Part shown: piece by piece, positions 9,182-36,347 of the stretch
How the letters are laid out: each line of letters starts with the position of its first letter
Numbering within the stretch: the stretch's first letter is position 1
NCBI GenBank assembly: GCA_900315845.1
Contig: OOHK01000005.1
Location: 114,321 to 178,320 of the forward strand
Source of the DNA: Candidatus Avelusimicrobium luingense
GTDB lineage: Bacteria > Elusimicrobiota > Elusimicrobia > Elusimicrobiales > Elusimicrobiaceae
Direction of reading: 5' to 3'
DNA: 64,000 nucleotides
Position numbers and translations under genes: made by a program
The notes under the pieces: model-generated
Database searches by the model: none
Told to the model about the DNA's origin: nothing
What the model saw: only the letters and a program-made list of their open reading frames with translations

Positions 9182-10057
9182 ATGAAATACGGTATGAATT
9201 TTCAGGATATTATATCCGCTTTGAACACCTATTGGACGAAACAAGGGTGCATCCTTGTTCAGCCCTATGACGTAGAAAAAGGAGCCGGTACATATAACCC
9301 GGAAACTTTTTTCGGCGCGCTTACTAAAAAACCTGTCAGCCGCGCCTATGTAGAACCTTGCCGCCGTCCCGCTGATGGCCGCTATGGCGAAAACCCCAAC
9401 CGCTTGGGCAAATACTATCAATATCAGGTTATTATCAAACCTGCTCCGGCAAACATTCAAGAACTTTACTTAAATTCGTTAAAAGCCATCGGTTTAGATC
9501 CCAAACAGCACGACGTGCGGTGGATTGAGGACGATTGGCAATCGCCTACATTAGGGGCTTCCGGCGTCGGTTGGGAAATTTGGTTAGACGGTATGGAAAT
9601 TACACAGTTTACCTATTTCCAAAATATGGCCGGTTATGCGTTAAACCCCATTACGGTAGAAATTACCTACGGGCTTGAACGTATTGCGATGTACTGCCAA
9701 AAAGTGGATAACGTCTTTGACGTGCGCTGGAACGATAACGTCACGTACCGCGACGTACACCACGAAGGCGAACGTCAATTTTCGCACTATTATTTTGAAG
9801 AATCTAACGTGGAACACTTGCGTCGTTATATTCAAGAATGTGAAGAAGAATGTTTTGCACTTTGCAAAAAAGGTTTATACCTTCCGGCGTATGATAACAC
9901 CATGAAACTGTCACACTATTTTAATATGTTAGAAGCGCGCGGCGCGATTAGTGTATCCGAACGCACTAACAACATTACCAAAATTCGCAACTTGGCCAAA
10001 GCGTGCGCTAAAGCGTATGTGGAAAGTGTGGAAAAGAAAGAGGAGGCCGCGAAATGA
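9182..10057 (+). CDS. glyQ: Glycyl-tRNA synthetase alpha subunit
   Basis: 291 aa. It is the catalytic subunit of the tetrameric (alpha2beta2) bacterial GlyRS. Family hallmarks seen are [44 protein letters not shown] and [10 protein letters not shown]. Also present are [24 protein letters not shown] (written here in two parts: [14 protein letters not shown] and [10 protein letters not shown]) and YGLERIAMY. An internal Met four codons in is an alternative start. The stop overlaps the glyS start (ATGA), so the two subunits are translationally coupled. Confidence 0.97.
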
Positions 10058-12129
10058 ACGCTTTGTTAGAAATCGGAGTAGAACATTTACCGGCGCGGTT
10101 TATGAAACCGGCATTAGCGCAATTGGAAAAATTAGCCGCAGATTTATTGACGGAAAAACGTATTTCTTATGAACGTATCAATGCGTTTGGTACGTACCGC
10201 CGGTTGGTGGTGGAAATTGTCAATATCGCGGACAAATCGGCTGACGTACAAAAAGAAGTCAAAGGGCCGCCCGCTAAATTATTAAAAGATGCCAACGGAA
10301 ATTTCACCCCGCAAAGCGCCGGGTTTGCCCAAAAGAACGGTATTGCTCCGGAAAAATTAACCGTTGTAGAAACGGACAAGGGGCCTTTTATTTACGCTAA
10401 AGTCAAAATCAAAGGTGAAAAGACCGCTAAATTATTGCCTGAAATTTTTACGCGTTTGGTTACCGGACTTGAATTTGCCAAAAATATGATTTGGGAAGAA
10501 TCGGGGCTTCGTTACGGTCGCCCGATTCGTTCGCTGATCGGTCTGTACGGAAATAAAGTAATTAAATTTACGGTGGCCGGGGTAACTTCCAACAGAAATA
10601 CCTATCCGCTCTCGTCGTTTGGGCGCAAACCGATTAAAGTAGCAACCGCCGATGCAAAAGTATATGCCGAACTCTTACGCAATCAACCGCAACCTGTTTT
10701 GGTAATTCCGCAAGAACGTAAAGACGCCCTTATTAAAACGGTTTCCAATGAAGCCAAAGTGCGCGGATATCAAGCCGATTTGGATGAAAGTTTAGTGGAA
10801 GAAACGGTGTGGTTTACCGAACACCCGGTGGCGGTAAGCGGAGACTTTGAAATTAAGTTTTTAACGCTGCCCAAAGAACTTATTACTACCGTCTTAAAAA
10901 AACAAATTAAAATGTTCCCGGTGCTTAACAATAAAGGGGAATTACAACCGTATTTTATTGCGGTACGTGATGGTATTTCGGTGAATCAAAACGAAGTGCA
11001 AGGCGGATTCAAAAAAGTAATGTCGGCACGTTTATCCGATGCGGTTTTTTTCTTTGAAAACGATAAAAAAGAAGGCCTTGAAATCTTCAAAAATAAACTT
11101 AAAAACATTTCGTTTTTAGAAGGACTCGGCTCTATGTATGAAAAATCACAACGTACCCAACAACTTGCGTTGTGGTTGTGTGAAAAAACAAATCAAACTG
11201 CCTTAAAAGATACGGTAGATTATGCCGCTTCGCACGCATATGCAGATTTGGCCAGTCACGTCGTATATGAGTTCCCTGAATTACAAGGCTATATGGGGGG
11301 ACAATATGCCGCGTTGGAAGGCCATAAAGATGCCGCTAAAGCGATGGAAGAATTTTACTATCCGCTAACGAGCACCTCTGTTTTGCCGTCGGATAAGGCC
11401 GGGCAATTGGTATCTCTGGCCGGGAAAATAGATACGCTCGTAGGTAACTTTTTAATCGGTCAAATTCCGACGGGGAGCGAAGATCCCTTTGCCTTGCGCC
11501 GTCAAGCCTTTGGGGCGGTACGTATTTTATTGGAAGGCGCATTCCCGGTTTCCTTAAAAGAATTAGTGGAGAAATCACTTTCGTTATATCCGGCGCAAAC
11601 GGCCGATAAAGGCACCAAAGAACTCCCCGCATTTTTAAAAGCACGTGTGGCGCTTGTGCTTGAACAACGCGGGCATCAACCGGGTGTATTAGACGGTGTT
11701 TCCGATTGGTATGAAATGCCGCTTACACAAGTAGAAGCTCTTGTCAGTGCGTTAGAAACCGTTAAAACAGATGCGGCATTTGCCGCCGTATTGGAAGCCG
11801 CTAAACGGGTAAATAACATTTTGAAAAAAGCCGATGGAGTGTCAGCGCAGATTGACGTATCGCGTTTTGAACTTCCGGCTGAAAAAATGTTATTTGAAAC
11901 CGTGCAGCAAGTGGAAAAACAAATGGCTGCTTTACCGCAAACTACCGATAAAAACGGCTATTTAAGCCGCTTAAAAACGTGTACTGCCTTCCAAGCTCCG
12001 CTAGAGACTTTCTTTAAGGAAGTAATGGTTAACGCCGAAGACGTGGCCGTACGCAATAATCGCCTGGCATTACTCGCGCGCGTACGTACGTGTTTAGCGC
12101 AAACCGGCGCGGATATTACACGGCTGTAA
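10054..12129 (+). CDS. glyS: Glycyl-tRNA synthetase beta subunit
   Basis: 691 aa, the usual length for the beta subunit, which binds tRNA and is needed for aminoacylation. Recognisable stretches are [14 protein letters not shown] at the N-terminus, [37 protein letters not shown], and the C-terminal [16 protein letters not shown] with an anticodon-binding DALR-like domain. It overlaps glyQ by four bases and is closed by a strong terminator. Confidence 0.96.
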
Positions 12130-12180: not shown

Positions 12181-12218
12181 CATTTTTCCGACGGTAAAAA
12201 TAATTTTAAAATTACCCC

Positions 12219-12246
12219 TTGACAAATTTTACTTTTCCCTTATACT
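12219..12246 (+). promoter_or_regulatory. Strong promoter of the unassigned RNA
   Basis: Consensus TTGACA (12219-12224), a 16-bp spacer and TATACT (12241-12246). This is the best -35/-10 pair in the first 13 kb. The expected start point is about 12253. Confidence 0.8.
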
Positions 12247-12252
12247 AGAGAT

Positions 12253-12689
12253 ATGAGTTGTACATCCGTAGGCGGTTGGGTGTCATGCCGGATGTGGGGT
12301 GCCCGTGAGATGGTGCCCGTTGCAGATGCTAATTGCCGGTTGGCCTTGTGAAAGGGCGTTGCATGAATGTGGCGGAGGGTCGTTCCCGAAGTCGTGGTTT
12401 GGGCAAGGCGTTCGCGGGGTGGATCGGACGGCGTGGGCGTAGCGTGATGAGCGTTGGGCTTGCGTGTGACAGATTAGATGTCTGGCTTTGAGTAGGGCCG
12501 ATTGGTTGGTGGGCCGTATTCTTAGTGTGGGTTCTGTGCCCGGTTGATAGTTTGCTTCGGCGGGGAGGAAGAATCCTTAAGGTGTGAAGTAAATCCCAAG
12601 TTGCCTGCAAGTAGTACATGCTGCAGTAAAGGAGTAATGATGAAGGTGCAAAACTAGTCCCCTCGGTTGGATAAACCGGGGGGCTTTTT
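12253..12689 (+). ncRNA. Unassigned G/T-rich structured RNA, about 435 nt
   Basis: Between the glyS terminator and recO lies a transcription unit with a consensus promoter and an intrinsic terminator but no credible protein gene. Plus-strand composition is strikingly rich in G and T, unlike the neighbouring coding DNA. Several local hairpins can be drawn: ACATCCG with CGGATGT near 12262-12296; GGGTGCC with GGTGCCC (two G-U) close behind; GACA/TGTC around 12470-12485; and GGGA/TCCC enclosing 12565-12599. I looked for the conserved cores of RNase P RNA, tmRNA, SRP RNA and 6S RNA and did not find them. Near the 3' end, AAAGGAG (12628-12634) precedes a 6-codon reading frame (12637-12657) that ends just before the terminator. 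The ATG at 12253 opens a 32-codon frame exactly where transcription should begin. Function unknown. Confidence 0.65.
12659..12689 (+). terminator. Terminator of the unassigned RNA
   Basis: A ten-base-pair stem with one G-U pair (12659-12668 with 12674-12683) is followed by CTTTTT. It abuts the recO stop codon. Confidence 0.9.
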
Positions 12690-13365
12690 ATTGTGCAATA
12701 GTTTGAAGTGTAACAACAGAAGCAGTTTCTTCTTTGAGTCCAAAATTCTCTGAAGTGTGTAACGGATAGGTAAGATATTGGTTTAAGAAACGTCGGCAGA
12801 CATTGTTACATTTAGCAAGAGAAAGCAAATCTTCCGGCTCACTAAAAAGCAAATTGCTAAATTTATCTTCGTGCATTTTCTGCCAAAATTCCGGAGAAAT
12901 ATGTAATACCGGGTGGTCTAACCCGAACCCGGCCAGCATCATGAGCCGCAACGTAAACGCCGCTTGAAAAGCGGAATTAGCACCGTTTTGTTCAAGTTCC
13001 GTTAATGCTTGATATAATAATTCAAATTTTCCTTCGCTCGGTTGGTGTAGTGGCGTTAAACGCATCATTAACTCACAAAAGTGCAAGGCTAAGGATACAC
13101 GTTTTAAATCGTTGCGGATGGCCGGAAAAACATTTTCTAATTTACCACCTGTCAGCGTGCCCATTACACCACCCCCGCGAGTATAGATACGCATATCCGC
13201 ACAGATAAGCGGTTCGCTAAGAGCTTTTAATTTCCCCGTCGGACGAAGCACCCCGGGAACGCGCAAATTAAGCCGTCCGTGCTCACGGGTATATACACAA
13301 AGCACGCGGTCGGTTTCCCTAAAGGCTTGGCGAAGCAGTACAATGGCTTTATCGGTAAATATCAT
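12688..13365 (-). CDS. recO: DNA repair protein RecO
   Basis: 225 aa from the start chosen here. RecO anneals single strands and helps RecR load RecA. The family pattern is clear: N-terminal OB-fold with DKAIVLLRQAFRETDRVLCVYTREHGRL, then LKALSEPLI, a helical middle (LALHFCELMMRLT) and LMMLAGFGLDHPVL. The zinc-finger cysteines found in some RecO proteins are not evident. Another in-frame ATG lies at 13377. I prefer 13365 because TATGCT (13373-13378) lies 7 nt upstream and no Shine-Dalgarno sequence exists. The start is divergent from the secreted-protein gene at 13504, with a dyad between them. Confidence 0.9.
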   Translation of the reverse strand: MIFTDKAIVLLRQAFRETDRVLCVYTREHGRLNLRVPGVLRPTGKLKALSEPLICADMRIYTRGGGVMGTLTGGKLENVFPAIRNDLKRVSLALHFCELMMRLTPLHQPSEGKFELLYQALTELEQNGANSAFQAAFTLRLMMLAGFGLDHPVLHISPEFWQKMHEDKFSNLLFSEPEDLLSLAKCNNVCRRFLNQYLTYPLHTSENFGLKEETASVVTLQTIAQ

Positions 13366-13410
13366 TGTAATAAGCATAGCAAATTTTAACCCGGTATTCT
13401 ATATAGGACC

Positions 13411-33695: not shown

Positions 33696-34325
33696 CTATT
33701 GCAACGGAGCAGCCGGTTGGGCTTGCATCCGTTGTTGGCGAATTTGGTTCATATATTGTTGTTGTTCTGTTTGTAATTGCATCATTATAGTATCCATTTC
33801 TTGTACACGACGGGATCCGTTATAGACCCCAAAAATAGAGAACAGTACCCACAGAACAAGCATTCCGTTAAATACAGCGCGTTTGTCCATAAATGCAGGA
33901 TAATAATGTTTATCGCAAGCGCCAAAGCGGTTTTCTCCCGGAGTGCCCGGAATAATCATCAAAACTAAATTGAGAATTGCATAGATGACAACAAACACAC
34001 CCATAACAAAAGAAAAAGAAATCGTACGAGTGAACAAAGCCACGAATATACCTATGATGATGAGGAAAGGCAACCCAAGCACGACGAGTAATGACCACCA
34101 GCCGGACCAATCAAAATCGTGCAGACGGCGTGCAATCAAAGCACAATCAAACCAACAAATAATTATACTCAATATTTGTTGCGCCAAAAGGGCTAACATA
34201 TTGCCCTGCCCGGCCGACTGTAAAAGGGAAGATACCGGCAAGCAAATAATAACAAGCATCACTAACCAAAACAAAAATTCTGCCCGATTGGAACGGGAAG
34301 AAAACCCAAATAAATGTTTTAACAT
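33696..34325 (-). CDS. DUF805-family membrane protein
   Basis: 209 aa with four to five hydrophobic segments. The family signatures are SSRSNRAEFLFWLVML near the N-terminus, ALIARRLHDFDWSGWW, and PGTPGENRFG after the third helix. The function of DUF805 proteins is unknown. The C-terminal 40 residues are Gln-rich and likely cytoplasmic. The promoter is an extended -10 (TGCTATAAT, minus strand near 34350) with GGAGAAG before the ATG. Confidence 0.88.
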   Translation of the reverse strand: MLKHLFGFSSRSNRAEFLFWLVMLVIICLPVSSLLQSAGQGNMLALLAQQILSIIICWFDCALIARRLHDFDWSGWWSLLVVLGLPFLIIIGIFVALFTRTISFSFVMGVFVVIYAILNLVLMIIPGTPGENRFGACDKHYYPAFMDKRAVFNGMLVLWVLFSIFGVYNGSRRVQEMDTIMMQLQTEQQQYMNQIRQQRMQAQPAAPLQ

Positions 34326-34376
34326 ATCTTCTCCATATAGATATTATAGCAAAACCGTCGTAGGGTTGTTTTTACC

Positions 34377-36347
34377 CTATCTAATAAAATCATACGGATC
34401 AACAGCCAGTTTTGCCGTTACTTTTTTCTCCGGCTCAAACGAATCTAATAAAGCAAGCAGATCGGCCCGTTTTTCATTATCCGTCTTAAAAAGCAAGTAT
34501 TGTTTTTTAAGGGTATCGGTTTTTTTAGCGCACCATACCGGCCCTAAAATTTCACTACAAAGCGATTGGGCCAATTTTTTAAGACGGGCCGTTTCTCGGT
34601 TTAACAAAGCCACATCCTTGGCTTTTAAGGTCATTTTGAATAAATGCACAAAGGGGGGATAATTGAAACTTTCGCGAAGTGCCATTTCCGTTTCGGCGGC
34701 ATCCTTATAATCGGCCGCAAAAAGCGGGGCATAATCATACGATTCTTTATCGGCCGTTTGAATAATAAGCCGTCCATTTTTCCCACCTGATAAATGACCG
34801 CGCAACTCAAAAAGTAAGCGGGTAAATTTTTCGGTGGCACGATAATCGGATGAGGACAATTCCAATTCGGCGTCCAATACCGCACACAACGTAATTTTGG
34901 CACCGCGAAGCGCTCCTGCCGCCACTCTCGTACCGATAATAATATCCGCTTGTCCGTTCTTTAGCGCGTTTAATGCTTCAAATCCTTCGCCGTCTTTTGT
35001 GGCGAGCGTATCAGATTCCAAACGCAACAATTTGGCTTGTGGGAAAATTTTAGCGAGGTCTGCCGCTACTTTTTGCGTACCGCCGGAACGCGACTTAAAA
35101 ATCAAATTATGGCACTTGGGACATTCCTGTTCAAGTGGGGCTTTTGCACCGCATTTTTTACATACAAGTATGGAGCCGTCTTTTGTCTTTTCGTATGCTA
35201 AAATACCGCCGCAGGTGCTACAACGCGCGTACGTACCGCAGTTCAAACAAGCATACGCGTTAGCATATCCCATACGGTTTAACACAAGTAAAGACATCTC
35301 ACCGCGTTGTAAATTGTCGGTTAATTCCGAGACCAATAAATCAGACAAAAAGCGTGATTTTTCACCTTTTTTTTCGGCAAATTTGAGTTGGGGGGTAAAC
35401 GCATGCCCCGGAACGGCCGACGTAAAAACAAGCCGTTTAATATGGCCTTGTTGGGCTTGGTGTTCTACTTCCACGCTGGGCGTAGCCGATGATAAAACAA
35501 GTACCGCTCCATGGGCTTTAGCGCGGAAAAATAAGACATCGCGCGCGTGATAATAGGGTTTATTTTCTTCTTGTTTATAATTATCATCACCTTCATTAAG
35601 CATAGCGGCAAAGCGTAAATTCTTAAACGGTAATAATACGGATGAGCGTGTACCGATGACAACACAAGGCCGTCCGGAAGAAATGGCCGCAAAGTATTTT
35701 TTCTTTTTACTTACCGGCATACGGCTATGCCAACAAAACACATTATCCGCGCCAAAACGGCCTTCGGCTTCGCTGATAAATTGCCGGGCGGCGGCAATAT
35801 CGGGAACTGTAATTAAAATCTGCCCGTATCCCATTAAGGCTTTAGCGGCAACGCGTAAAACGGTTTCGGTTTTACCCGTATAAGCCGGGCCGTCTAATAA
35901 AAAAGCCGAGAAGGTGTATGCAGGTACATTTTCCAGCGCGTTTAATGCCGAAATTTGCGACGGCGTTAAATGATAGGATGGCATTGAAACAGTTACATTA
36001 ACTTGCGGCGTAGGCGGTTGGAATTTGACGTAAGGTTCTACCGGAATCAGCCCGCCTAAAATCTGTCCGATAGGCCCACCCCACTGATTTTTAATAAACT
36101 GGGCAAGCGGAAAAAAATCAGACCCAAAAACAGGTTGTTTATCTATCAAAGCGACGATATCTTTTAAGGCAATATGAGCGGGAGCATCGGATATTTCGGT
36201 TACTTGCGTTACAATGCCGCCCGTTAATACACGCCCGAACGGCGCAGTTACACGCATACCGGGGCGAAGTTTATCCGCCAATTCAACCGGCACGCGGTAA
36301 TCAAACGCTTTATCCAGCGGAACATCAAACGCAACTTTACAAAACAT
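34377..36347 (-). CDS. priA: Primosomal protein PriA with eroded helicase motifs
   Basis: 656 aa (E. coli PriA 732). The N-terminal DNA-binding domain is normal (VAFDVPLDKAFDYRVP, RPGMRVTAPFGRV). Walker A survives as GPAYTGKTE (153-161), as does the SSATPS motif (286-291). Zinc-binding cysteines are present in CLNCGTYARCSTCG, CKKCG and CPKCH. However, the DEEH box (motif II) reads LNEGD (250-254) before the still-recognisable NYKQE. The GRAGR motif VI is replaced by RGHLSGG (516-522), and GTQM reads GTRV. ATP-driven unwinding is therefore doubtful, though fork recognition may persist. It is the last gene of gmk-rpoZ-udg-priA. Confidence 0.85.
   Translation of the reverse strand: MFCKVAFDVPLDKAFDYRVPVELADKLRPGMRVTAPFGRVLTGGIVTQVTEISDAPAHIALKDIVALIDKQPVFGSDFFPLAQFIKNQWGGPIGQILGGLIPVEPYVKFQPPTPQVNVTVSMPSYHLTPSQISALNALENVPAYTFSAFLLDGPAYTGKTETVLRVAAKALMGYGQILITVPDIAAARQFISEAEGRFGADNVFCWHSRMPVSKKKKYFAAISSGRPCVVIGTRSSVLLPFKNLRFAAMLNEGDDNYKQEENKPYYHARDVLFFRAKAHGAVLVLSSATPSVEVEHQAQQGHIKRLVFTSAVPGHAFTPQLKFAEKKGEKSRFLSDLLVSELTDNLQRGEMSLLVLNRMGYANAYACLNCGTYARCSTCGGILAYEKTKDGSILVCKKCGAKAPLEQECPKCHNLIFKSRSGGTQKVAADLAKIFPQAKLLRLESDTLATKDGEGFEALNALKNGQADIIIGTRVAAGALRGAKITLCAVLDAELELSSSDYRATEKFTRLLFELRGHLSGGKNGRLIIQTADKESYDYAPLFAADYKDAAETEMALRESFNYPPFVHLFKMTLKAKDVALLNRETARLKKLAQSLCSEILGPVWCAKKTDTLKKQYLLFKTDNEKRADLLALLDSFEPEKKVTAKLAVDPYDFIR

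Follow-up and report, generated by a model that had tools for sequence, protein, structure and literature searches.

What is the G/T-rich transcript that lies between glyS and recO in Candidatus Avelusimicrobium luingense, and what role might it have? The source genome (1.46 Mb in 8 contigs) belongs to a genus of gut and rumen Elusimicrobiaceae, and we analyzed the locus within a stretch of 64,000 nucleotides of one contig (referred to as the window; coordinates below are positions in it unless a genome and contig are given). The first-pass annotation had described an RNA of 435 nt with a consensus promoter, an intrinsic terminator, several hairpins and no protein gene, matching none of the housekeeping RNAs, and had put it forward as a candidate new structured RNA class, a proposal that a significant Rfam match or a lack of conserved structure in relatives would have refuted.

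A transcription unit between glyS and recO

The RNA is encoded by a self-contained transcription unit on the + strand, flanked upstream by glyS (10054-12129, + strand) and facing the convergent recO (12688-13377, - strand), the stop codon of which meets the U-run of the terminator. The promoter, TTGACA-16-TATACT (12219-12246), matches the consensus at 11 of 12 positions, and the intrinsic terminator, CCCCUCGGUUGGAUAAACCGGGGGG followed by the U-run (12659-12688, with the hairpin at 12659-12683), is conserved in the homologs; both signals are thus as first annotated. With its start inferred from the promoter, the RNA extends over 12253-12688 (approximately 435 nt). A promoter of this type precedes 55 of 56 homologs, the 56th being on a contig that is cut short. 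Upstream of it lies a conserved motif, AAAATTACCCC (12208-12218, + strand; often ACCCC or GGGCC before the -35 element), which precedes most of the homologs as well as two further RNAs of the same genome.

The strand bias reported in the first-pass annotation is real: the transcript contains 38% G and 27% T, has a GC content of 55% (versus 44% for the window) and has a G+T fraction of 0.648, which is equalled by 0.02% of 435-nt stretches in the window. A second stretch of extreme strand bias is found at about 33826-34396, where G+T or A+C reaches approximately 0.64 over 435 nt. The predicted fold of the transcript has a z-score of -5.1 (none of 100 dinucleotide shuffles was equally stable). 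There is no long sense ORF in the transcript, the longest open frame being 56 codons. The antisense strand has an open frame of 96-120 codons, largely because the complement is rich in A and C; we rejected antisense coding, given that indels among the homologs are rarely multiples of three and break this frame.

A predicted fold conserved among relatives

The predicted fold is closed by a long helix, P1, in which 12259-12281 pairs with 12594-12619 (UCCCAAGUUGCCUGCAAGUAGUACAU; both on the + strand), joining the 5' end of the RNA to the segment before a Shine-Dalgarno sequence; pairs of this helix recur in the consensus fold for the seven nearest sequences, which comprises 85 pairs, 18 of them with a compensatory change. 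We evaluated P1 by strand swapping: cognate duplexes have an energy of -23.4 kcal/mol, compared with -19.6 ± 0.45 kcal/mol for swapped ones (none of 2000 permutations was as good), and two control regions were without effect. A hairpin at 12297-12318 shows compensatory changes (columns 50-56 with 65-71 of alignment A3, with CG, UA and GC exchanges) and is followed by a hypervariable, G/U-rich, non-coding middle region (12320-12529). Because the indels of this region in the alignments are rarely multiples of three (a fraction of 0.00-0.19), neither of its strands codes for protein.

The core hairpin (12530-12576) consists of an outer stem, GGUUCU/AGAAUCC, and an inner stem, CCCGGUU/GGCGGGG, around the loop GAUAGUUUGCUUC (12546-12558; consensus GAUnnnUUGSUUC). 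The inner stem has 48 double-sided changes, as against 22.7 in shuffles (0 of 500), and the outer stem, too, is better than strand swaps. A conserved segment, AGUAAAUCCC (12588-12597; alignments A1-A3), runs into P1. The homologs are related to each other and covariation counts are not independent events; the safest part of the evidence is the sliding control in the inner stem test and the control regions in the swap test. As judged from these alignments, the fold is conserved with compensatory changes, and the second refuting condition, a lack of conserved structure in relatives, did not come true.

Distribution within one genus

The RNA is present as one copy per genome in 57 of 66 genomes of the genus. 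With 14 relatives as input, a covariance model for the 3' domain found one copy in 56 of the 66, and the 57th (G017, locus L008) was found by BLAST only; in BLAST searches, full-length relatives appeared only in close species. A second covariance model, run against 295 genomes of the phylum, found 54 genomes of the genus at E <= 1.6e-5 and outside the genus nothing better than E 0.002, with no convincing copy elsewhere in the phylum. That match (in genome G185) and those at loci L110-L118 were set aside as resembling ordinary gene starts or falling within chance, judged against the number of genomes searched. The core hairpin occurs in named records of uncultured Elusimicrobium and of Elusimicrobiaceae metagenome-assembled genomes (for example, UBA1436, RUG129 and RGIG6754). 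Transcripts of the homologs range from 219 to 544 nt, with a median of approximately 438.

Homologs had been expected between glyS and recO, which proved only partly right: glyS lies upstream in many relatives, but the downstream gene varies. Because the downstream genes are not conserved, we infer that the RNA acts in trans. In the nearest sister genus examined (g12, loci L185-L199) a prepilin-like gene directly follows glyS on the same strand, in the place of the RNA, and the idea of a cryptic version there was rejected. A mobile element was likewise rejected, there being a single copy per genome and no viral contig that matches the core-hairpin pattern.

A micro-ORF at the foot of the terminator

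With regard to the absence of a protein gene, the first-pass annotation was correct for long sense ORFs, but its statement needs qualifying because it overlooked the most unusual part of the RNA, a translated-looking micro-ORF at the 3' end. Placed outside P1 and before the terminator, on the + strand, are a Shine-Dalgarno sequence, AAAGGAG (12628-12634), and the micro-ORF AUG AAG GUG CAA AAC UAG (12640-12657, encoding MKVQN); a tandem in-frame AUG is found at 12637, so that the order is AAAGGAG-UAAUG-AUG AAG GUG CAA AAC UAG (12628-12657). A purine-rich, Shine-Dalgarno-like stretch precedes the AUG in the homologs listed. All 56 tabulated homologs have an AUG at the same place and an in-frame stop codon at the foot of the terminator, compared with stops in 4 of 56 and 14 of 56 for the other frames (expectation for the in-frame stop after shuffling, 0.32). 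The micro-ORF has five codons in 52 homologs, eight in three and four in one, and ends with UGA (42 homologs), UAA (8) or UAG (6); in every case it fits the sequence criterion for a ribosome-clamping minigene (an ORF of two to eight codons with a Shine-Dalgarno sequence).

The 56 homologs encode 35 different peptides, mostly polar and with no common sequence. Nowhere is the RNA more open than over the Shine-Dalgarno sequence and micro-ORF, where the unpaired probability averages 0.60 (versus 0.35); in 41 of 55 RNAs this stretch ranks among the 5% most open windows. Of approximately 283 terminator-like hairpins found in a loose scan of the 64,000 nucleotides this is the only one with a micro-ORF tail. 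Again, the homologs are related and do not represent independent events. With this reservation, the frame and length of the micro-ORF appear to be under selection and its peptide does not; a length that is fixed while 35 peptides differ points to selection on translation, rather than on the peptide.

Further RNAs with the same promoter motif

Starting from the promoter motif, we identified two more RNAs in this genome, both outside the window and both without an Rfam match. RNA3 (G000:C3:26520-26895, minus strand; loci L045 and L167, homologs L168-L177) is approximately 390 nt long and structured-looking, has the same type of promoter and has relatives in the genus, and it is unrelated to the main RNA. 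A terminal ORF of six codons, with UGA at the terminator, is present in 10 of the 10 homologs read; the peptides, read by eye, are MNMSVQ, MNMSAN, MNKPVK, MRMLAN, MYTLAN, MNQLTQ, MDDKAN, MEESTN, MEESTK and MEESTR. This genome's own copy of RNA3 also has an internal start-stop (Shine-Dalgarno sequence, AUG, UAA).

RNA2 (G000:C6:107154-107329, minus strand; loci L042 and L137, homologs L138-L166) is approximately 165 nt long, has a strong consensus fold and was found in 35 of the 66 genomes sampled as relatives, all of them members of this genus. Its apparent micro-ORF, which a GUCAU/AUGAC hairpin overlaps, was not used as evidence, and we regard RNA2 as a candidate for an unrecognized 6S or SRP RNA, or for a new RNA. 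Two other genomes carry RNA-like units with the same promoter that differ from the genome's main copy (G006:C154:2758-2801, loci L029 and L124; G016:C4:11433-11480, loci L017 and L123), with the short terminal ORFs MKEST and MEKAIS, respectively. In two more relatives (G010 and G035, loci L010 and L025) the motif precedes an RNA of approximately 95 nt with a terminator near tRNA genes.

Possible roles of the terminal micro-ORF

Conservation of where the micro-ORF lies, without conservation of the peptide that it encodes, suggests that ribosomes are retained by the RNA. As length and frame are preserved and sequence is not, the simplest reading, which is an inference, makes the tail a means of keeping a ribosome bound to the RNA. 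We propose, tentatively and with less than even confidence, a structured RNA that is specific to the genus, has one copy per genome, acts in trans and is equipped with a ribosome clamp of its own. A ribosome would initiate at the exposed micro-ORF, make a short peptide of no fixed sequence, terminate, and then re-initiate on the same RNA without leaving (such reiterative translation is inferred); because the ribosome would not leave, the folded domain would remain attached to it and could act from there on some target. A role in translation or in ribosome availability is a guess only.

There is precedent for such re-initiation. ORFs of two to eight codons are re-translated without dissociation of the ribosome, with approximately 71 rounds for an ORF of 7 codons, 30 for one of 11 and 6 for one of 15 (PMC6495379), and a strong Shine-Dalgarno sequence favors re-initiation without dissociation (PMC8708949). 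The seven-codon microcin C precursor gene mccA resembles the tail in having an ORF of two to eight codons, a strong Shine-Dalgarno sequence, an adjoining terminator and a ribosome that re-initiates without leaving (PMC6495379), the last of these being inferred for our RNA. Unlike mccA, however, the RNA is not accompanied by biosynthesis genes in the window (its neighbors are glyS and recO, with no mccB), its peptide is not conserved, and a structured RNA of 400 nt lies upstream of the ORF. The C-terminal Asn that microcin C requires is not conserved either, peptides ending in Asn being a minority, and a microcin C precursor, which would show this residue and an adjacent mccB, was rejected. Minigenes such as mg2 of axe-txe share the few codons, the strong Shine-Dalgarno sequence and a regulatory role for the act of translation, inferred in our case, but they belong to leader regions and affect the gene that follows (PMC8708949), whereas the ORF of this RNA is at the 3' end with no gene following.

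The ribosome-clamp reading is the most likely one, although there are no expression, ribosome or phenotype data and the mechanism is inferred. Were it to apply to RNA3 as well, one genus would have no fewer than two unrelated long RNAs carrying a selected, sequence-free micro-ORF solely to hold a ribosome, and these would constitute a new class of ribosome-tethered structured RNA; this we consider possible, with slightly less confidence. Against the ribosome-clamp reading, 4 of the 56 homologs do not have five codons and no target or partner is known; moreover, formation or stability of the 3' end could be all that the translation signals are for.

This last point leads to the main rival, a translated 3'-end module in which the ribosome would free the linker from upstream pairing, allowing the terminator to form and shielding the 3' end from nucleases, while the function of the folded RNA would have no link to the ribosome. 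We give this somewhat less weight than the ribosome clamp. The stop codon of the micro-ORF always abuts the terminator, the same plan recurs in RNA3, and a ribosome positioned on the seven-codon mccA ORF triggers termination at the terminator next to it (PMC6495379); binding of ribosomes to a mini-ORF has also been reported to protect an mRNA from RNase E (reference 23 of PMC8708949). The terminator hairpin is, however, strong by itself, and other terminator-like hairpins in the window do without such an ORF.

That the peptide or the minigene effect is itself the product, either as a short peptide signal or as a brake on translation via peptidyl-tRNA drop-off, is unlikely because the peptide sequences disagree. 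The polar character of most of the peptides would suit such a product, and minigenes on which the ribosome re-initiates without dissociating are known to be toxic when expressed (PMC8708949); yet the 35 peptides have no common sequence, UAA, reportedly the more toxic choice of stop codon (PMC8708949), is found in only 8 of 56 homologs, and the fold of 400 nt would be left unexplained.

Comparison with known RNA families

None of 4227 Rfam families matched the window copy at the gathering score, nor did the RNA strand of the locus give anything credible at E <= 5, and three homologs (L002, L009 and L019) likewise matched no family at the gathering score; the Rfam match that would have refuted the earlier proposal is therefore lacking. 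The locus does not match the Rfam model of RNase P RNA, which the genome encodes elsewhere (G000:C7:51509-51846, 228 bits with the class A model), and ARAGORN found no tmRNA in the window, that of the genome being located at G000:C7:190808-191152. With all Rfam models run, no SRP model matches the locus, and the small SRP model finds no such RNA in the RNA's own genome (approximately 95% complete); the 6S RNA model (RF00013) matched neither the locus nor any of 61 genomes of the order. The exclusion of these four RNAs in the first-pass annotation is in agreement with the searches. The true SRP RNA and 6S RNA are unaccounted for, but nothing ties either to this locus.

The same gaps, namely the missing small SRP RNA of the genome and the missing 6S RNA of the 61 genomes, leave room for the locus to encode a divergent housekeeping RNA (SRP or 6S) that Rfam models miss. 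We consider this very unlikely: no Rfam model matches the RNA strand even at E <= 5, a length of 435 nt with a hypervariable middle and absence from sister genera do not fit, and RNA2 or RNA3 could be such an RNA just as well. A cis-acting leader or attenuator, in which the position of a ribosome on the micro-ORF would decide whether transcription continues past the terminator into a downstream gene, has the anatomy of micro-ORF and terminator in its favor but is most improbable and was rejected on the evidence of the neighbors, because no same-strand downstream gene is conserved, recO is convergent in the window with its stop codon touching the terminator, downstream genes differ among relatives and the codons share no amino acid.

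The covariance models of OLE, ROOL, GOLLD and other large noncoding RNAs in Rfam also found no match at the locus. OLE, ROOL and GOLLD are large structured bacterial noncoding RNAs of unclear function (PMC12286853), and they resemble this RNA in that they are long and folded, are transcribed independently and owe their naming to comparative genomics; ours differs in being much smaller and limited to one genus, in ending with a selected micro-ORF and in having no Rfam match. Relatives preserve both the sequence and the structure, with covariation, in support of the candidate class first proposed, and we conclude that the RNA is a genuine new structured RNA class, limited to one genus.

Novelty and biological meaning

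Minigenes and dual-function RNAs are already known. In dual-function small RNAs such as SgrS/SgrT and RNAIII/delta-haemolysin, the internal ORF encodes a real small protein that is conserved; the present RNA resembles these in being a regulatory-type RNA with an internal ORF, and differs in that only the length and frame of four to eight codons are conserved. To our knowledge, a long structured RNA with a selected, sequence-free terminal micro-ORF, seen here in two unrelated RNAs, has not been described. This judgment is limited to the open-access literature searched, and a stricter reader could see a variant of the dual-function RNA.

One screen for structured noncoding RNAs labeled ORF motifs without structure beyond the terminator as uORFs or sORFs (PMC6429828), so that micro-ORF tails may receive little attention; the design is easily missed elsewhere, because ORFs of approximately five codons are normally ignored. 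In the open-access literature searched, no RNA is described for this bacterial group, and our analysis adds a genus-wide structured RNA to a phylum for which that literature held no RNA class. The RNA carries translation signals that appear to be kept for their position and length, not for their product. If the ribosome-clamp reading is true, then a disposable micro-ORF would deliver some 'non-coding' RNAs to ribosomes.
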